Part shown: positions 55,721-64,000 of the stretch, piece by piece
Layout of the letters: every line of letters starts with the position of its first letter
Numbering within the stretch: position 1 is the stretch's first letter
Assembly: GCF_026016445.1 (NCBI RefSeq)
Contig: NZ_CP096147.1
Coordinates: forward strand, 2,826,501 to 2,890,500
DNA length: 64,000 nucleotides
Source: Cognatishimia activa
Lineage (GTDB): Bacteria; Pseudomonadota; Alphaproteobacteria; Rhodobacterales; Rhodobacteraceae
Reading direction: 5' to 3'
The notes under the pieces: model-generated
What the model saw: the letters and a program-made list of their open reading frames with translations, nothing else
Database searches by the model: none
What the model was told of the DNA's origin: nothing
Position numbers and translations under genes: made by a program

Positions 55721-55796
55721 GCCGCTGTAGCTCAGCTGGTAGAGCACGTCATTCGTAATGATGGGGTCGTAGGTTCAAGTCCTATCAGCGGCACCA
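55721..55796 (+). tRNA. tRNA-Thr (anticodon CGT)
   Basis: A 76-base tRNA with CCA encoded. Acceptor GCCGCTG/CAGCGGC, D-arm GCTCAGCTGGTAGAGC, anticodon stem with loop TTCGTAA (anticodon CGT at 55754-55756, reading ACG threonine), T-loop GGTTCAAGTCC. All helices pair with one wobble in the anticodon stem. Confidence 0.95.
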
Positions 55797-55949: not shown

Positions 55950-56552
55950 GTGATCTTGGATCTGCCAGCGACTGATGCCCTCACCATCGTGATTGTCGAG
56001 CATGACAAGGACCGTGCGCTGTCCATTGTGGACAGCCTGCGCGAGACTGGCCCGCATAAAATTCATGTCCTTGCTGAGGAAAGCGGCCTGTCACGGTCTG
56101 TCTCACAGCTGAAACCCGATGTGGTGTTGATCGATGTCGCAAACCCTTCGCGGGATTCGATCGAGCAACTAGCAAACGCATCCTCTCCGCTGGAGCGGCC
56201 CGTCGCCTTCTTTGTAGATCGCAGTGATGCGCAGATGACTAAGGCCGCGATTGAGGCGGGCGTGTCGGCTTATGTGGTGGACGGTTTGCAGATGGACCGG
56301 ATCAAACCGGTGATGGACGCAGCAATTGCGCGGTTCCAGATGTTCCAGCGGATGCGCACGGAATTGGAAACCACCAAACGCGCTTTGGAAGAGCGAAAAG
56401 TGATCGACCGTGCGAAAGGCTTGCTGATGAAGGTGCGTGGGATTTCCGAAGAAGAGGCCTATGCTCTCTTGCGAAAGACTGCGATGGATCAGGGTAAGCG
56501 CGTGGCAGATGTGGCTGCTTCCTTGGTGACAGCGGCGGATTTGCTGTCATGA
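55950..56552 (+). CDS. nasT: ANTAR-domain response regulator NasT (nitrate/nitrite antitermination)
   Basis: RNA-binding antitermination regulator. The 200-residue protein has a receiver-like N-terminus (IVIVEHDKDRALSIVDSLRE with the acceptor position at VVLIDVANP, D69 by eye) and a C-terminal ANTAR domain (residues 125-195, VIDRAKGLLMKVRGISEEEAYALLRKTAMDQGK). In Azotobacter and Klebsiella it is inhibited by NasS and binds paired hexaloop hairpins in leader RNAs. Start GTG at 55950; a weak upstream signal. Overlaps nasS by four bases. Confidence 0.94.
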   Translation: MILDLPATDALTIVIVEHDKDRALSIVDSLRETGPHKIHVLAEESGLSRSVSQLKPDVVLIDVANPSRDSIEQLANASSPLERPVAFFVDRSDAQMTKAAIEAGVSAYVVDGLQMDRIKPVMDAAIARFQMFQRMRTELETTKRALEERKVIDRAKGLLMKVRGISEEEAYALLRKTAMDQGKRVADVAASLVTAADLLS

Positions 56553-57718
56553 GCGGACAGCAGATCAAAGCAGGATACATGCCACTCATCGATGCGGCGC
56601 CATTGATTGTGGCCCATGAGTTGGGATTTGCCGAAGAGGAAGGGATCGCACTGGAGCTTGAAGCGGCCCCCAGTTGGTCGACATTGCGCGATCTATTGGC
56701 TTTTGGGCAAATCCAGGCAGCTCATATGCTATCTCCGGTTCCCGTTGCTTCATCATTAGGACTGCTGGCTGGACTGCCGCGGCTTGATGCGCTGATGGTG
56801 ACTTCCGCAAACGGCAATGTGTTTGGCGTTTCCAAAGAAATGTCCGAGCGGCTTGAAGCCGATGGTTTTGCCTATCCCTTTCATGATGCGGAGAAGGCGG
56901 GCTTGGCCATTGCCTCTCTGCCAAGACCACTGCGCATCGGGGTGCCCTTTGACTTGTCGATGCATTCGGAGTTGATCACACTCTGGCTATCGAACTTTGG
57001 CATGGTGAAAGGGGAAGACTTCCACATCATGGCGGTGCCACCTCCGATGATGGCGCGGGCCATTGAACGACGTGAGTTAGATGCTTTCTGCGTTGGGGAG
57101 CCATGGGGGTCGATCACAGTTGAGCGCGCGATGGGCGCATTGATATTACCGGGCGCCGCGATCTGGTCCTGTGCACCTGAAAAAGTTTTGGCAGCCAGAG
57201 AAGACTGGATTGCCGAAAACCCAACTGCAGTTTCCGCTCTGATGCGAGCGGTGTGGCGCGCCTGCGTCTGGTTGGCAGTGCCGGGCAATAAGACAATGGC
57301 AGCAGAGTTGCTATCGTCTGAGACCTATTTGGGACTTGGGTCAGAGATCATTGATCGCGCCCTATCTGGGCGGTTCATTGTGAACAGCAATGGCGATCTG
57401 CGTCGATTTGATGGGTTCATGCTCTTTGCGGGTGATGGCATCTGTTTCCCATGGCAATCTCAGGGCCGCTGGATCGCCGAGCGTTTGGTGAAGCGGTTCA
57501 ACCTTTCGGCAGATGTGCGGCCGGAGGATGCTCAGAAGGTTTTCCGAAGCGATCTATACCGAGAATATCTGATGCCAATTGGCGCAGAAATGCCTCTGAG
57601 CTCTGCCAAGGTAGAGGGTGCATTGGACGCGCCAACAGAGGTTCCGACGGTTTCGGGTAGCATGATTCTGGGGCGGAATTGCTTTTTTAATGGCGAAATT
57701 TTCGATCCAGGTCAGTAA
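56549..57718 (+). CDS. nasS: Nitrate/nitrite sensor NasS (cytoplasmic NrtA-like binding protein)
   Basis: Binds nitrate or nitrite and, when empty, sequesters NasT. The 389-residue protein resembles NrtA/CmpA nitrate-binding proteins but has no signal peptide, so it is cytoplasmic, as in NasS. The N-terminus MSGQQIKAGYMPLIDAAPLIVAHELGFAEEEG and the FCVGEPW segment are typical. Coupled to nasT. Confidence 0.93.
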   Translation: MSGQQIKAGYMPLIDAAPLIVAHELGFAEEEGIALELEAAPSWSTLRDLLAFGQIQAAHMLSPVPVASSLGLLAGLPRLDALMVTSANGNVFGVSKEMSERLEADGFAYPFHDAEKAGLAIASLPRPLRIGVPFDLSMHSELITLWLSNFGMVKGEDFHIMAVPPPMMARAIERRELDAFCVGEPWGSITVERAMGALILPGAAIWSCAPEKVLAAREDWIAENPTAVSALMRAVWRACVWLAVPGNKTMAAELLSSETYLGLGSEIIDRALSGRFIVNSNGDLRRFDGFMLFAGDGICFPWQSQGRWIAERLVKRFNLSADVRPEDAQKVFRSDLYREYLMPIGAEMPLSSAKVEGALDAPTEVPTVSGSMILGRNCFFNGEIFDPGQ

Positions 57719-57739
57719 AGCTGCCCATTTTTTCAGCAC

Positions 57740-57770
57740 TGCAGAAAAATCACGCTGCAATGCAGAAAAA
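57740..57770 (+). repeat. Direct repeat TGCAGAAAAA upstream of the nrtA leader
   Basis: TGCAGAAAAA occurs at 57740-57749 and 57761-57770, 21 bases start to start (two helical turns). A partial inverted form TTTTTTC precedes it. May be a regulator site of the nrtA promoter; no family match. Confidence 0.35.
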
Positions 57771-57822
57771 ATGAGGAGAACGACTCGTATCGGCAAAAGG
57801 TTAACGACATACTGACCTCAAC

Positions 57823-57842
57823 GCAGAGCAATGGCGCTCTGC
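57823..57842 (+). promoter_or_regulatory. ANTAR hexaloop hairpin P1
   Basis: Perfect 7-bp stem GCAGAGC/GCTCTGC with hexaloop AATGGC: A at position 1 and G at position 4, the ANTAR RNA signature. Confidence 0.85.
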
Positions 57843-57884
57843 TAAGATATCAATATCCAGGGTCGCTGATTGGTCTTGGAATGA

Positions 57885-57902
57885 TTGAGCAAAGCCGCTC
57901 GA
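57885..57902 (+). promoter_or_regulatory. ANTAR hexaloop hairpin P2, overlapping the terminator arm
   Basis: TTGAGC/GCTCGA stem (six pairs, one G-T wobble) with hexaloop AAAGCC: A1 and G4. The loop and 3' arm are the first bases of the terminator's 5' arm (57891-57905), so P2 and the terminator cannot coexist. Confidence 0.82.
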
Positions 57903-57951
57903 CAATGGGTCCCTCCTCCTCCCTGGACCTCTTTGTCGGCGGCTTTTTTTT
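57891..57951 (+). terminator. Leader intrinsic terminator of the nrtA operon
   Basis: AAAGCCGC-T-CGACAA (57891-57905) pairs with TTGTCGGCGGCTTT (57933-57946) as a 14-bp stem with one bulged T. A smaller GGTCC/GGACC hairpin sits in its loop. It is followed by eight T's. NasT binding to P1/P2 would prevent it. Confidence 0.88.
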
Positions 57952-57995
57952 ATGCCCATCCGTTGGGTGGATGGGCCCGAACAAGGACGGAATGA

Positions 57996-59360
57996 ATGAA
58001 ACGCATAGCTTCCATTCTCGCAGCTACAGTCACAATGGCCACGCCAGCCCTTGCTGAATTGGAGCTCGAAAAAGACGAACTGACTTTCGGATTTATCAAG
58101 CTGACAGACATGGCGCCGTTGGCGGTGGCATACGAACAGGGTTACTTCCTGGAAGAAGGCCTGTTCGTGACGCTTGAAGCGCAAGCGAACTGGAAAGTTC
58201 TGCTGGACGGCGTGATTGACGGTCAGTTGGACGGCGCGCACATGCTGGCGGGTCAGCCGCTGGCGGCGACAATCGGTTACGGCACCGAGGCGCACATCAT
58301 CACACCATTTTCAATGGACCTGAACGGCAACGGCATCACCGTTTCAAACGAAATCTGGGAAGCGATGAAGCCAAATGTTCCTCTGATGGAAGATGGCCGT
58401 CCTCAGCACCCAATCAGCGCATCTGCTCTGAAACCAGTGGTCGATGAATACACTGCGGCAGGCAAGCCATTTAACATGGGAATGGTTTTCCCAGTATCCA
58501 CGCACAACTACGAACTGCGCTACTGGCTGGCAGCCGGTGGTATCGAGCCTGGCTACTATTCCCCAGAAAACATCACAGGTCAGATCGGTGCAGAAGCGCT
58601 TCTGTCCGTGACACCTCCTCCACAGATGCCAGCGACAATGGAAGCGGGCACCATCTATGGCTACGCGGTGGGTGAGCCTTGGAACCAGCAGGCTGTTTTC
58701 AAAGGCATCGGTGTTCCGGTGATCACTGACTACCAGATGTGGAAAAACAACCCTGAGAAGGTTTTCGGCATCACCAACGAATTCGCCGAAGAGTATCCAA
58801 ACACCACCAAAGCGGTTGTGAAGGCTCTGATCCGTGCGGCGATCTGGCTGGATGAAAACGACAACGCCAACCGTGACGAAGCCGTGGAAATCCTGTCTCG
58901 CCCTGAATATGTGGGTGCGGACGCCGAGGTGATCGCGAACTCCATGACTGGCTTCTTCGAGTTCGAAAAAGGCGACAAGCGCGACATCCCGGACTTCAAC
59001 GTGTTCTTCCGCTATAACGCAACCTACCCATACTACTCTGATGCGATCTGGTACCTGACACAGATGCGTCGCTGGGGTCAGATTGCTGAAGCGAAGTCTG
59101 ACGAATGGTACTTCGAAGCCGCGAAATCTGTTTACCGCCCAGATATCTATCTGGAAGCAGCCCGCCTGCTGGTGGACGCTGGCCTGGCAAACGAAGCTGA
59201 CTTCCCATGGGACAGCGATGGCTTCAAAGCGCCAACACCTGCTGAAGATATCATCGACGGTATCGCATACGACGGTAAGGCACCAAACGCTTACATCGAC
59301 AGCCTGCCAATCGGCCTGAAAGGCGCGCAGACAGTCGTTGGCACCGAAGTTCAAGGCTAA
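57996..59360 (+). CDS. nrtA: Periplasmic nitrate-binding protein NrtA
   Basis: Substrate-binding protein of the nitrate ABC transporter. The 454-residue protein has a Sec signal peptide ([20 protein letters not shown]), no lipobox Cys, then the NrtA/CmpA fold ([25 protein letters not shown], and the nitrate-site [11 protein letters not shown]). Expression should be under the leader terminator. Longest gene of the operon's first part; the gap after it holds a hairpin. Confidence 0.93.
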
Positions 59361-59518: not shown

Positions 59519-60601
59519 ATGACTGCCATCGATCCACAACAGTTGGACGACCAGGCCGCCCGCGAGGCGCGGAAGGCCAAGATCTTCACATGGATCAATA
59601 AAGCCGACACATGGTTCACCGTATTGGGCCTCGGCTGGCTGACTCCAATCTTCCGTGCCATCGCGGGTGACAACCCAAAGGCACAGTATAAAGAAATCTG
59701 GAAGCTGGCTGGTGTGCCGGTTCTGGCGATTGTGGGCTTCATGTTCCTTTGGGCGACGCTGGCGCCACAGGTTCAAACCTCATTGGGCGCGGTTCCGGGA
59801 CCATCTCAGGTTTGGGAGCAGGCTGTGAACCTGCATGAAGATGCGCAGGCGAAAGCCGCTAAGAAAGCGCAATTCGAAGAAAAAGTTGCACAACTGAACG
59901 AGCGACTGATCGCACAAGGTAAAGAGCCGAAAGAACGTGCCTTCACCGGTGCGCCAAGCTACTACCAGCAAATCTGGACCTCGATCAAAACCGTTTTCTT
60001 CGGCTTCTTGATTGCATCTGTTGTTGCGATCCCGCTTGGTATCCTTGCAGGTCTGTCGCCTTACGCAAACGCAGCTATCAACCCGCTGGTACAGATATTT
60101 AAGCCGGTTTCTCCGCTTGCATGGCTGCCGATCGTGACCATGATCGTTTCTGCGACCTACGCGGTGGACGGCGACGGCTGGTTTGCAAAATCCTTCCTGA
60201 ACTCTGCCATCACCGTGACGCTCTGTTCCCTGTGGCCAACTCTGATCAACACCTCTCTGGGTGTGAGCAGTATCGATAAGGACCTCGTCTCTGTATCCAA
60301 AGTACTGAAAATGAGCACATGGACTAAGATCACCAAGCTGGTTCTGCCATCCGCGTTGCCCCTGATCTTCACCGGTCTGCGTCTGTCCCTTGGTGTGGGC
60401 TGGATGGTTCTGATTGCGGCTGAAATGCTGGCGCAGAACCCTGGTCTTGGCAAATTCGTATGGGATGAATTCCAAAACGGCTCTTCCCAGTCTTTGGCGA
60501 AAATCATGGTGGCTGTCTTCACCATCGGCATCATAGGCTTCCTGCTCGACCGCCTGATGTATGCGATCCAAGCTGCCTTCACCTTCACAAACAATCGGTA
60601 A
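59519..60601 (+). CDS. nrtB: Nitrate ABC transporter permease NrtB
   Basis: Membrane permease. The 360-residue protein is longer than cyanobacterial NrtB (about 275) by an N-terminal cytoplasmic extension with one helix (VPVLAIVGFMFLWATLAP) and a Lys/Glu-rich coiled-coil segment (residues 105-145) before the BPD_transp_1 domain. The EAA loop LAQNPGLGKFVWDEFQ is present. Tightly spaced ahead of the ATPase gene. Confidence 0.92.
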   Translation: MTAIDPQQLDDQAAREARKAKIFTWINKADTWFTVLGLGWLTPIFRAIAGDNPKAQYKEIWKLAGVPVLAIVGFMFLWATLAPQVQTSLGAVPGPSQVWEQAVNLHEDAQAKAAKKAQFEEKVAQLNERLIAQGKEPKERAFTGAPSYYQQIWTSIKTVFFGFLIASVVAIPLGILAGLSPYANAAINPLVQIFKPVSPLAWLPIVTMIVSATYAVDGDGWFAKSFLNSAITVTLCSLWPTLINTSLGVSSIDKDLVSVSKVLKMSTWTKITKLVLPSALPLIFTGLRLSLGVGWMVLIAAEMLAQNPGLGKFVWDEFQNGSSQSLAKIMVAVFTIGIIGFLLDRLMYAIQAAFTFTNNR

Positions 60602-60609
60602 TCTGACCC

Positions 60610-62313
60610 ATGGCGATACTGAAACTCGATAACGTTTCTAAAAGCTTCGGCGAAGGCACAGCCAAGACCGACGTTTTGAAGAACATCAATCTGGAAGTTG
60701 AGGAGGGCGAGTTCCTCGTTCTCCTCGGCTTCTCCGGCACCGGGAAAACCACTCTGATCAACCTGCTGGCGGGTCTGGAGAAACCTTCCCAAGGCGCACT
60801 GACTTACAAAGGCAAAGAGATCACGGGCCCGGGCCCAGAGCGCGGCGTGATCTTCCAAAGCTACTCGCTGATGCCTTGGCTGTCTGTCTCTGGCAACGTG
60901 CGTCTGGCGGTCGATAGCGTCTTCCCAAAGATGCCTTCTGCCGAAAAGGACAAGAAGGTTGCGCACTACGTGAAGATGGTGGGCCTGAGCCACGCGGCGA
61001 CACGCCGTCCGGCTGAGCTTTCTGGCGGCATGCGTCAACGTGTGAACGTGGCGCGCGCCTTGGCAATGAACCCAGAGGTTCTGTTGCTGGATGAACCGCT
61101 TTCTGCGCTTGATGCTTTGACGCGCGGCAATCTCGCGGATGAGATCGTTTCGATCTGGGCCGCTGAAAAGCAGACCTGCGTTCTAATCACCAACGATGTG
61201 GACGAAGCCATTGTGATGGCCGACCGCATCATCGCGCTTAACCCAGATGGCACCCTTGGCGAAGAATTCAAAGTTCCGCTGGCGCGTCCGCGTGATCGCA
61301 CCGCTATGAACAATGATGAAACCTTCAAGAAACTGCGCATGGAAGTGACCAACTACCTGATGGACGTTGGCATTGAGGCGAAGGTTGAAGGTTCCAAGCA
61401 GCTGCCGAATGTAACCCCGATCCACGGTGTCCCAGCTGCAGTTGCGCAGGCGCAGGAAGGTCTGATCGAGAACCGCTTCTTGGACTTCTCCCAGCTTCAC
61501 AAGGTGTACCCAACGCCAAAAGGTCCGCTGACCGTGGTTGAGGACTTTGACCTGAAAATCAACAAGGGTGAGTTCATCTCGCTAATCGGTCACTCAGGCT
61601 GTGGTAAATCCACCGTTCTGACCATGGCCGCAGGTCTGAATGAAATCTCTAAAGGTGCCATCAAACTGGACGGTCGCCACGTTGAGGGCGCTGATCCGGA
61701 GCGCGCGGTGGTGTTCCAATCACCTAACCTCTTCCCTTGGCTCACCGCGCGTGAAAACTGTGCGATCGGCGTGGACAAGGTCTACCCAAAAGCCAGCCAG
61801 GCAGAGCGCCAGGACGTGGTGGAATACTATCTGGAGCGCGTAGGTCTGGCCGACGCGATGGATAAATCTGCCTCTGACATGTCCAACGGTATGAAGCAGC
61901 GTGTGGGTATCGCCCGTGCTTTTGCCTTGTCTCCGAAACTGCTGCTGTTGGATGAACCATTCGGCATGCTTGACTCTCTGACACGTTGGGAGCTGCAGGA
62001 AGTTCTTATGGAAGTTTGGTCCCGCACCAAGGTGACTGCCATCTGTGTGACGCACGACGTGGACGAAGCCATCCTGCTCGCGGACCGCGTGGTCATGATG
62101 ACCAATGGCCCACAAGCGACCATCGGGAAAATCACAGAAGTTGACCTGCCACGTCCAAGGACCCGAAAGGCGCTTCTGGAGCACCCTGACTATTACACTT
62201 ACCGCCAAGAAGTCCTCGAATTCCTGGAGGAATATGAACACGGCGCAAAACCCAAACCAAAGGCTGAGGCAGCTGCCAAGCCCAAGGTGAAGCCAAAGAT
62301 TGCGGCGGAGTGA
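60610..62313 (+). CDS. nrtCD: Nitrate ABC transporter ATPase with two NBDs (NrtC-NrtD fusion)
   Basis: Single chain with two ABC nucleotide-binding domains: NBD1 residues 1-260 (Walker A GFSGTGKTT near residue 39, signature LSGGMRQR, Walker B LLLDEPLSALD) and NBD2 residues 295-540 (GHSGCGKST near 326, signature MSNGMKQR, LLLDEPFGMLD). The second signature has Asn where Gly is usual. Both motifs look competent. The C-terminus is a Lys/Pro/Ala-rich tail. No NrtA-like regulatory domain as in cyanobacterial NrtC. Confidence 0.9.
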   Translation: MAILKLDNVSKSFGEGTAKTDVLKNINLEVEEGEFLVLLGFSGTGKTTLINLLAGLEKPSQGALTYKGKEITGPGPERGVIFQSYSLMPWLSVSGNVRLAVDSVFPKMPSAEKDKKVAHYVKMVGLSHAATRRPAELSGGMRQRVNVARALAMNPEVLLLDEPLSALDALTRGNLADEIVSIWAAEKQTCVLITNDVDEAIVMADRIIALNPDGTLGEEFKVPLARPRDRTAMNNDETFKKLRMEVTNYLMDVGIEAKVEGSKQLPNVTPIHGVPAAVAQAQEGLIENRFLDFSQLHKVYPTPKGPLTVVEDFDLKINKGEFISLIGHSGCGKSTVLTMAAGLNEISKGAIKLDGRHVEGADPERAVVFQSPNLFPWLTARENCAIGVDKVYPKASQAERQDVVEYYLERVGLADAMDKSASDMSNGMKQRVGIARAFALSPKLLLLDEPFGMLDSLTRWELQEVLMEVWSRTKVTAICVTHDVDEAILLADRVVMMTNGPQATIGKITEVDLPRPRTRKALLEHPDYYTYRQEVLEFLEEYEHGAKPKPKAEAAAKPKVKPKIAAE

Positions 62314-62317
62314 GACT

Positions 62318-64000
62318 ATGAAAAAGAAACTTGTTGTTATTGGTGCGGGTATGGCCTCTGGCCGTGCGCTGGAGCACCTGTTGGAGGCAGACAAAGATGC
62401 CTACGACATCACTCTTTTCAACGCAGAACCGCGTGGAAACTACAACCGCATCATGCTGTCTCCGGTTTTGTCCGGCGATAAAACTTACGAAGAAATCGTA
62501 ACGCATGATGCGAATTGGTACGAAGAAAACGGCGTAACCTGCCGGTTTGGGGAGCATGTCGTCAAGATCGACCGCGAGCGCAAAATTGTGGTTGGCCAGA
62601 ACGGTGAAGTTGCCTACGACAAGCTGCTTATGGCAACTGGTTCTGCGCCTTTCATCATTCCGGTGCCCGGCAAAGACCTGCCCGGTGTGATTGCCTACCG
62701 CGATCTTGATGACACCAACACCATGATCGAAGCGACCCAGAAACCGGGCGCCAAAGCTGTGGTCATCGGTGGTGGTTTGCTGGGTTTGGAAGCCGCTGCC
62801 GGCCTGAAGGCCCGCGGAATGGACGTGACCGTTTTGCACCTGATGGGTCACTTGATGGAGCGCCAGCTTGATGAGGCGGCAGGCTACCTTCTGCGTCGCG
62901 CGCTGGAAGACAAAGGCATTGAAGTGAAATGCCAAGCGTCAACAGCAGCAATCTTGGGTGAAGACAAAGTCGAAGCAGTTCTGCTGCAGGATAAAACCAC
63001 GATCCCTGCCGATCTGGTGGTTATGGCTGTGGGTATCCGCCCAGAAACGCGTCTGGCGAATGATGCGGCGATTGAGGTCGAACGCGGTATCACCGTGGAT
63101 GACGCAATGCGCACCTCTGATCCAGATATCCTTGCGGTTGGTGAATGTGTCGAGCACCGTCAGCAGCTCTTTGGTCTCGTCGCACCGCTCTATGACCAAG
63201 CGAAAGTGGTTGCGGCAACGCTCTTGGAAGAAGACGCTGTTTTCGCTCCAAAAGAAGTCTCTACAAAGCTGAAAGTCACCGGTTGTGACCTCTTTAGCGC
63301 GGGAGACTTTGCCGAGGGTGAAGGCCGCGAAGACATCGTATTCCGCGACCCAAGCCGTGGTGTCTACAAACGCCTTGTGATTGAAAACAACGTGATCGTT
63401 GGCGCGGTCATGTATGGTGATACTGCTGACGGAAATTGGTTCTTTGGCCTGATCAAGGACAAGACCGATATTTCCGACATGCGGGATACGTTGATCTTTG
63501 GCCCAGCCTTCCAAGGAGGCGAACCGCTGGACCCCTTGCAGGCCGTTGCAGCCTTACCGGATGACGCAGAAATCTGTGGGTGCAACGGCGTATGTAAAAG
63601 TCAAATTGTCGACGCCGTCAAAGCTGGCGCTACTGATCTGGGTGCGGTCCGTGCCCAGACAAAAGCCTCTGCCTCTTGCGGTACATGTACGGGACTCGTC
63701 GAGCAGCTGATGGCGGTCACCCTTGGGGATGACTTCCAGATGCCAGCAGCCCAGTCTGTCTGTGGCTGTACCGATCTGACCCATGAAGATGTGCGTCGCT
63801 TGATCAAGTCCAAAGAGTTGAAATCTCAGGCCGCGGTCTGGCAGGAGCTTGGCTGGAACACGCCAAATGGTTGCCACGTCTGTCGCCCTGCGGTGAACTA
63901 CTACCTTCTGGCAGATTGGCCTGTTGAATATCAGGACGATCCACAGTCTCGGTTCGTGAACGAGCGCAAACACGCGAACATCCAGAAGGACGGCACCTAT
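62318..64000 (+). CDS. nirB: Assimilatory nitrite reductase large subunit (NADH), 3'-truncated
   Basis: Reduces nitrite to ammonium with NADH; carries FAD, [2Fe-2S], [4Fe-4S] and siroheme. Only the first 561 residues are in the window: an FAD/NAD(P)-binding oxidoreductase fold (VVIGAGMASGRALEHLL; VVIGGGLLGLEAAAGL), and two BFD-like [2Fe-2S] cysteine motifs (CGCNGVCK near residue 423, CGTC near 454; CGCTD later). The ferredoxin-nitrite reductase-type siroheme part lies beyond the window. ATG at 62318 with GGAG seven bases upstream. No nirD or nasA seen yet. Confidence 0.94.
   Translation, partial: MKKKLVVIGAGMASGRALEHLLEADKDAYDITLFNAEPRGNYNRIMLSPVLSGDKTYEEIVTHDANWYEENGVTCRFGEHVVKIDRERKIVVGQNGEVAYDKLLMATGSAPFIIPVPGKDLPGVIAYRDLDDTNTMIEATQKPGAKAVVIGGGLLGLEAAAGLKARGMDVTVLHLMGHLMERQLDEAAGYLLRRALEDKGIEVKCQASTAAILGEDKVEAVLLQDKTTIPADLVVMAVGIRPETRLANDAAIEVERGITVDDAMRTSDPDILAVGECVEHRQQLFGLVAPLYDQAKVVAATLLEEDAVFAPKEVSTKLKVTGCDLFSAGDFAEGEGREDIVFRDPSRGVYKRLVIENNVIVGAVMYGDTADGNWFFGLIKDKTDISDMRDTLIFGPAFQGGEPLDPLQAVAALPDDAEICGCNGVCKSQIVDAVKAGATDLGAVRAQTKASASCGTCTGLVEQLMAVTLGDDFQMPAAQSVCGCTDLTHEDVRRLIKSKELKSQAAVWQELGWNTPNGCHVCRPAVNYYLLADWPVEYQDDPQSRFVNERKHANIQKDGTY

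Follow-up and report, generated by a model that had tools for sequence, protein, structure and literature searches.

A putative NasT antitermination leader with a third hairpin in front of nrtA in Cognatishimia activa

INTRODUCTION

Antitermination by ANTAR proteins is usually pictured as the work of one dimer on two hairpins that stand close together. Leader studies reportedly exist for Azotobacter, Pseudomonas aeruginosa and Bradyrhizobium nosR as well as for the systems considered below.

The control of nitrate assimilation by NasS-NasT antitermination, the binding of NasT to nas leaders, and the two-hairpin ANTAR motif are all established (PMC3795266, PMC5424462, PMC3369931, PMC7496416, PMC8934654). 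In Paracoccus, nitrate-activated NasT shifts the nasA leader in gel shift assays, and NasS-NasT dissociates with nitrate (PMC3795266). SELEX with NasR gave a consensus of a terminal C:G pair and a hexaloop with A at position 1 and G at position 4 (here, A1/G4; PMC7496416). The spacing of the two hairpins has been studied for EutV, whose leaders have linkers of 5 to 12 nt: linkers of 3 or 14 nt strongly lower induction (PMC3369931), and 20 nt added to the linker abolishes antitermination in vitro (PMC8934654). In the EutV structure, G4 stacks on Tyr164 while A1 has no specific contact; one dimer binds one hexaloop at a time, and successive binding has been proposed, first to the recruitment hairpin and then to the antitermination hairpin (PMC8934654).

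Here, we analyze the gap between nasS and nrtA in a window of 64,000 nucleotides from Cognatishimia activa (contig NZ_CP096147.1, positions 2,826,501 to 2,890,500). A sequence-only reading had described this gap as a two-hairpin NasT unit. Both of its hairpins and its terminator proved real, but a third hairpin between the two had been overlooked. The regulatory system is known; the third hairpin (Pm) and an over-long linker between the outer hairpins (P1 and P2) make this leader a variant of it.

RESULTS

A NasS-NasT gene pair ahead of nitrate assimilation genes

The features of the locus are collected in Table 1. The position of the genes and the protein families that they encode place a NasS-NasT system ahead of a nitrate assimilation operon, and open reading frames and Pfam matches bear out the earlier placement of nasTS directly upstream of the leader. 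The nasS start overlaps the nasT stop by four bases. The last frame in Table 1 extends past the end of the window, and its start codon is our choice. A tRNA-Thr (CGT) gene lies at 55721-55796, about 150 bases upstream of nasT.

Table 1. Features of the nasTS-nrtA locus (positions within the window)
Feature	Position	Strand	Description
nasT	55950..56552	+	Receiver-like and ANTAR RNA-binding protein (PF03861), 200 aa, GTG start
nasS	56549..57718	+	Nitrate/nitrite-sensor-like, NrtA/NMT1_2 type; PF13379 E 7.6e-55
nasS-nrtA gap	between 57718 (nasS end) and 57996 (nrtA start)	–	Houses the leader hairpins and terminator
Dyad	57755..57765	+	CTGCAATGCAG; between nasS and P1, upstream of P1
P1 hairpin	57823..57842	+	7 bp GCAGAGC/GCTCTGC; hexaloop AATGGC 57830-57835; read directly and folded
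P1-P2 linker	57843..57884	+	42 nt; contains Pm
Pm hairpin	57856..57880	+	9 bp TCCAGGGTC/GGTCTTGGA; 7-nt loop GCTGATT 57865-57871; C:G closing pair; loop G4 at 57868
P2 (antiterminator) hairpin	57885..57902	+	6 bp TTGAGC/GCTCGA; hexaloop AAAGCC 57891-57896; read directly and folded
Intrinsic terminator	57891..57951	+	T8 at 57944-57951; read directly and folded
nrtA	57996..59360	+	ABC transporter nitrate-binding protein, first gene after the leader; PF13379 E 1.5e-92
nrtB	59519..60601	+	Permease; PF00528; TIGR01183 E 4e-45, under its cut-off
nrtCD-like ATPase	60610..62313	+	Two ABC domains in one 567-aa protein; TIGR01184 in two stretches, 598.2 bits
nirB-like	62318..64000	+	Assimilatory nitrite reductase large subunit; TIGR02374 596.9 bits, over cut-off

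The ANTAR domain of NasT (residues 141-193) was found over the Pfam cut-off (PF03861, E 1.5e-22), and the receiver domain below it (PF00072, E 2.7e-6, 28.0 bits against a cut-off of 30.2). The Pfam scan of NasT gave these two families only (ANTAR and Response_reg), and the NIT nitrate-sensing domain was absent. In phmmer searches, NasT matched the structures 1s8n, 6wsh, 4akk, and 1qo0, which we take to be Rv1626, EutV, NasR, and AmiR, respectively. By our own count on the phmmer alignment, Y171 and M179 of NasT line up with Tyr164 and Met172 of EutV. We found no ANTAR match other than NasT in the genome, which is an estimated 98.99 percent complete.

Two A1/G4 hairpins and a terminator

Direct reading and folding confirmed the two hairpins with the A1/G4 hexaloops AATGGC and AAAGCC. 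In both, a C:G pair closes the stem below the loop (C57829:G57836 in P1, C57890:G57897 in P2). Also confirmed is the 14-bp terminator with eight T's, whose 5' arm shares bases with the second hairpin, as claimed. In this terminator, AAAGCCGC and CGACAA pair with TTGTCG and GCGGCTTT, with one bulged T at 57899, and its folding energy of -29.9 kcal/mol is far below that of shuffles (z -6.9). The loop and 3' arm of P2 double as the 5' arm of the terminator. Because A1 of the P2 loop is already the first base of the terminator 5' arm, P2 and the terminator are mutually exclusive. Across 57800-57995, none of 200 shuffles folded as well as the real sequence (z -4.1). One more 9-bp hairpin was seen in the fold at 57954-57976, between the terminator and the nrtA start.

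General-purpose scans returned little at this place. A simple terminator scan reported no terminator at the leader, probably because the hairpin loop exceeds the 3 to 8 bases that the scan allows, and a sigma-70 promoter scan found nothing. At the gathering score, Rfam had no family for the leader, and only a tRNA passed in the window. The four Rfam matches with E up to 1 in 57600-58050 comprised three microRNA families and CcsR1, all far under gathering and rejected; the microRNA matches, at 57717-57782, were discarded as sub-threshold.

A single strong site in the genome

We searched the genome with a covariance model built from 33 relatives, with the window left out, and scored 150 of 1092 first-look candidates. 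The leader was the single strong match (43.1 bits, E 1.8e-7); the other five reached at most 22.7 bits (E 0.02). The second and third matches (22.7 and 19.6 bits) were rejected because they are located inside long open frames, and the remaining three scored 12.8 bits or less. NasT of this genome thus probably has one operon as its direct target, as judged from this search.

Conservation of the leader among relatives

In a search of 198 genomes of the same family, NasS had a match with E up to 0.001 in 89, the window's own included, of which the weakest may be NrtA alone. A first search of genome contigs with NasS found no relatives. An alignment search with NrtA came next, and the best 80 of its 552 confirmed places were used. 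The closest among the NrtA matches listed was that of Cognatishimia maritima (98 percent identity over 361 residues). Altogether, 156 leader regions were gathered, and 149, the window among them, were kept once 7 duplicates had been dropped; genomes with a weak NasS match, or with one that ran up against a contig end, were left aside, as were two extra stretches (L078 and L079) from genome G192.

The gene order and the leader of the window recur in these relatives. In genome G188, about 2 kb separate nasS from the nrtA match of one leader region (L011), versus the usual few hundred bases, which suggests an insertion in or beside the leader.

Hairpins were chosen blind to their loop letters: the terminator was located first, followed by the overlapping hexaloop hairpin of best energy. 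By the rule used, 124 of the 149 leaders have a terminator and 25 do not. P2, the overlapping hexaloop hairpin, was present in 119 of these 124; its loop is A1/G4 in 114 and has G4 in all 119. P1, taken as the most stable hexaloop hairpin 36 to 65 nt upstream, is A1/G4 in 83 of 96 leaders, with none found in 23 of the 119, compared with 68 of 1161 hairpins in mononucleotide shuffles. (In our first search, where longer P1 stems were preferred when there was a choice, 27 of the 149 leaders were without an A1/G4 P1.) When hairpins of the form C[ANNGNN]G were counted in the 124 leaders, 2 had none, 36 had one, 78 had two, and 8 had three. Among 2480 dinucleotide shuffles, 47 had one such hairpin and none had two.

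The stems tell a similar story in an alignment of 69 of 71 selected leaders, whose rows were required to have at least 4 pairs, the fifth pair being left free. The C:G closing pair is present in 68/69 P1 and 69/69 P2 hairpins, and the rows had been picked for pairing, not for letters. The fifth pair of P1 is formed in 51 of the 69 rows by six pair types, with both sides changed in 25 rows, although kinship among the sequences inflates these covariation counts. The anatomy of the leader and its conservation are shown by these data.

These counts bear on the question of whether the hairpins could be an ordinary attenuator, or a terminator of nasTS, free of NasT control. A strong terminator is present, NasT binding to this particular leader is something we infer, and mutation of hairpin HII in Paracoccus barely affected nitrate-grown expression (PMC5424462). 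An attenuator of that kind would not, however, account for A1/G4 letters kept far beyond chance in two separate hairpins whose stems vary, and we consider it very improbable. Regulation of this leader by nasTS, as had been proposed, is instead supported by the presence of a sole ANTAR protein, a single strong leader site, and a gene order that recurs in relatives, all of them features read from sequence.

Two leaders (L108 and L120) are peculiar in that the P1 and P2 loops both start with G (GAGGAT for P1 in both; GAAGCC and GACGCC, respectively, for P2), as if the first loop base of P1 and P2 had changed together. A change of NasT specificity in these two was considered and dropped, as no obvious difference in the ANTAR domain could be seen by eye.

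Upstream of P1, the CTGCAATGCAG dyad is a possible promoter or operator element, as suggested by its recurrence: the pattern C[TC]GCNN[TC]GC[AG]G is present in 59 of 103 leaders versus 16 of 2060 mononucleotide shuffles. It lies 82 to 86 nt before the P1 loop in 18 of the 59, and 75 nt before it in the window.

A third hairpin between P1 and P2

The view of the leader as a pair of ANTAR hexaloops holds for the loops, which have A1 and G4, but not for their distance, since 42 nt between P1 and P2 is far beyond what EutV tolerates. Within this stretch lies Pm, 13 nt behind P1 and 4 nt ahead of P2. It is present in minimum-free-energy folds of the leader, where an added G:U pair leaves it with a 5-nt loop, and its stability when folded by itself is only moderate, being matched by 13 of 200 shuffles. 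The Pm loop of the window is without A1 and has seven nucleotides, so that Pm and P2 do not form a pair of A1/G4 hexaloops here. Relatives that do have such a hexaloop in Pm include L080 (ATTGAT) and L066 (AATGGC).

One of these folds raises the question of whether, in the window organism, an extended Pm stem pairs with the P2 5' arm and so acts as an anti-antiterminator, in which case NasT would also have to disrupt Pm. In the minimum-free-energy fold of 57800-57995, UCAAU (57850-57854) does pair with AUUGA (57884-57888), reaching into the P2 5' arm. The fold of 57820-57902, on the other hand, retains P2 with 5 bp next to Pm, and no matching complementarity was seen by eye in the sister sequence L080. 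We therefore regard this arrangement as quite improbable.

A hairpin is found at the place of Pm in many relatives, mostly with a CCC/GGG stem. When Pm was chosen by energy, the central fourth base of odd-sized loops was G in 57 of 59, versus 176 of 864 in mononucleotide shuffles; even-sized loops had G at position 4 in just 39 of 71, giving G4 in 96 of 130 overall. These counts are without L095, L057, L062, and L144, in which P2 was misassigned, and without the 12 of 149 leaders that have neither P2 nor a terminator. Next, 100 chosen loci were searched with a covariance model (R2), and the 96 that matched were aligned by a model without Pm pairs. Of the leaders in this alignment, 89 of 92 have G in the G4 column of the Pm loop. 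Once the 33 rows on which the model was trained are set aside, 56 of 59 do; those 33 had been picked, in an alignment of their own, for G4 in a Pm loop frame of 7 nt. On the two sides of the loop, the closing base is C in 88 of 93 leaders and G in 84 of 93, respectively; position 1 is much less uniform (A in 51 of 92, G in 34). A GAATT-like box with one invariant A is also seen between P1 and Pm in the alignment of those 33 relatives.

Hairpins of the form C[xNNGNN(N)]G with at least 4 bp are present in 51 of 92 linkers, versus 171 of 4600 dinucleotide shuffles, and the median gap between Pm and P2 across linkers is 6 nt. Even with the stem requirement relaxed to at least 3 bp, this strict form was not found between P1 and P2 in 29 of the 92 leaders. 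Folding energy by itself is weak evidence for Pm: against dinucleotide shuffles, the linker of the window has a z of -1.07 (p 0.16), and p 0.05 was reached by 15 of 89 linkers. By a wider measure of the linker, with P1 taken to 6 bp and P2 as 4 bp, the window has 45 nt and the 89 leaders have 27 to 47 nt, these leaders having been selected for a long P1-P2 distance.

Covariation in Pm is weak as well, because most stems are CCC/GGG: 11 cells of the helix are changed on both sides. The covariation score is higher than in any of 500 shuffles, but the number of such doubly changed pairs does not stand out in this way (200/500). The window gains 11.5 bits when scored by a model with Pm pairs instead of one without them, part of this gain being due to cheaper handling of the window's longer Pm stem. 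The Pm pairs were added for 63 loci that had not been used in training, one of them the window: scores rose by more than 0.5 bits in 31, fell in 13, and stayed about equal in 19. Overall, then, the evidence for Pm is uneven.

In the main alternative, NasT touches P1 and P2 only, and Pm brings them closer together as an untouched, passive stem. A1 and G4 are kept best in P1 and P2, whereas in Pm the first loop base is A in little more than half of the leaders, the loop often has 7 nt, and even-sized loops have G4 only about as often as not. Moreover, when the loop letters are left free, stems of 4 bp or more are found in 80 of 92 linkers versus 2567 of 4600 shuffles. What a passive stem leaves unexplained is the near-invariant G4 of the aligned Pm loops together with their C:G closing pair. 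We take the passive stem seriously, at odds well short of even. A contact or relay role of Pm for NasT, which the loop letters suggest, we propose tentatively, and at slightly less than even odds.

Leaders beyond the family

Outside the family, the leader has a patchy distribution. Across the class, the leader model matched 10 of 385 genomes under strict filters, and 20 of 289 class genomes had a NasS match with E no higher than 1e-60. At the 19 class NasS loci besides the window, the 700 bases behind nasS hold at least two A1/G4 hexaloop hairpins in 13 cases and at most one in 6. NasS matched in 170 plasmid records, of which 8 were opened; in two of these 8 (L196 and L199) there was no such leader and at most one such hairpin behind nasS. 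At the two gammaproteobacterial NrtA loci looked at (L158 and L159), no P2 with a terminator was found.

The leaders that were found differ in their number of hairpins. In Rhodobacter sp. CZR27 (L195), AACGGC and AAGGAC hairpins are joined by a third, AATGAC, that was recognized by eye and has three pairs only. In three long leaders (L179, L180, and L182), four or more ANTAR-like hexaloop hairpins could be seen in series, partly by eye. Three other loci (L183, L185, and L201 from Ensifer) have two hairpins with loops 18 to 21 nt apart, and since these have only two close hairpins, three cannot be a requirement of NasT in general.

The two-hairpin leaders also suggest a different division of labor, in which Pm and P2 would be the working ANTAR pair, as in these other alphaproteobacteria, and P1 would be an accessory or a decoy. 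Their upstream loop lies at about the place of Pm, and the short median gap between Pm and P2 would suit such a pair. P1, however, is better conserved than Pm in its A1/G4 letters, and Paracoccus depends on an upstream hairpin, HI (PMC5424462), although HI could not be matched to one of the three hairpins. We consider this division of labor unlikely.

DISCUSSION

Our main reading is that the leader is a nitrate-responsive NasT antitermination leader of nrtA-nrtB-nrtCD-nirB under NasS control, to which we give a probability of roughly 0.9 on the evidence of gene order, protein families, RNA folding, and conservation of the hairpins. The release of NasT by NasS and the binding of NasT to the leader are published for Paracoccus and would apply here by analogy. 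Without nitrate, NasS would keep NasT, and RNA polymerase would halt at the terminator. With nitrate or nitrite, NasS would let NasT go, and NasT would then keep P2 as a hairpin, thereby occupying the terminator 5' arm so that transcription could proceed into nrtA.

A more specific proposal concerns how NasT would come to P2. Given distances of 13 nt from P1 to Pm and 4 nt from Pm to P2, compared with a P1-P2 distance of 42 nt that would lie outside the EutV limits, Pm could be a stepping stone, with the caveat that these limits may not hold for NasT. In such a relay, NasT would be recruited on P1, would move to Pm on its emergence, and would get to P2 before the terminator forms. Pm would thus bridge an otherwise over-long gap by making two short hops of it. 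A broader, more speculative proposal, against which we would sooner bet, is that the NasT leaders of Rhodobacterales are ANTAR relays in which a dimer is passed along three (elsewhere at least four) single G4 hairpins to the one that blocks the terminator. If this were true, one loop would be the unit of recognition, and the time window of the operon would depend on how many stepping stones there are and how they are spaced, not on a fixed hairpin pair.

Whichever role Pm has, leaders with distant outer hairpins joined by a mostly G4 third hairpin offer a natural test of the successive-binding model proposed for EutV, and three-hairpin leaders may broaden the motif used in genome searches for ANTAR targets. 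We found no description of a three-hairpin NasT or ANTAR leader in the literature that we searched, and as our coverage of it was partial, we do not claim the third hairpin as unreported.

Comparison with known systems

The locus has the parts of a NasS-NasT system, namely, a NasT with receiver-like and ANTAR domains and an NrtA-like NasS, encoded together with nasT beside nitrate assimilation genes. One of the closest described counterparts is the nasA leader of Paracoccus denitrificans, where nasT-nasS likewise lies directly upstream, hairpins lie in the nasS-nasA gap, and nitrate assimilation genes come next. In P. denitrificans HAMBI_2443 (L194), the leader has three C:G-closed G4 hairpins as in the window (AACGGC, AATGAT, and GACGAT), but the sequence and spacing of the hairpins differ, and the first gene is membrane-transporter-like by eye, not nrtA. 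A scan of this leader gave no run of five T, and the hairpin published as HI, which lies 137 bp upstream of nasA, could not be assigned on comparison to any one of those in this leader. Bradyrhizobium diazoefficiens NasT is also an antiterminator of nitrogen genes, with hairpins reported in some of the leaders (PMC6759348), but its targets are nos, nap, and others, in contrast to the one strong leader match in the genome analyzed here.

The nasF leader of Klebsiella oxytoca is another case of nitrate-controlled ANTAR antitermination, and P1 and P2 fit the NasR SELEX consensus. NasR, however, senses nitrate with its own NIT domain, whereas here a separate protein, NasS, would be the sensor. As an ANTAR target RNA, the leader has two A1/G4 hexaloops, C:G closing pairs, and an overlap of P2 with the terminator. 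It shares with the EutV-dependent eut leaders of Enterococcus faecalis both the A1/G4 hexaloop hairpins and a second hairpin that overlaps the terminator (PMC3369931, PMC8934654). It differs in lacking their compact linker: the eut leaders have two hairpins with 5 to 12 nt between them, while the outer hairpins of the C. activa leader stand 42 nt apart, with a third hairpin in between.
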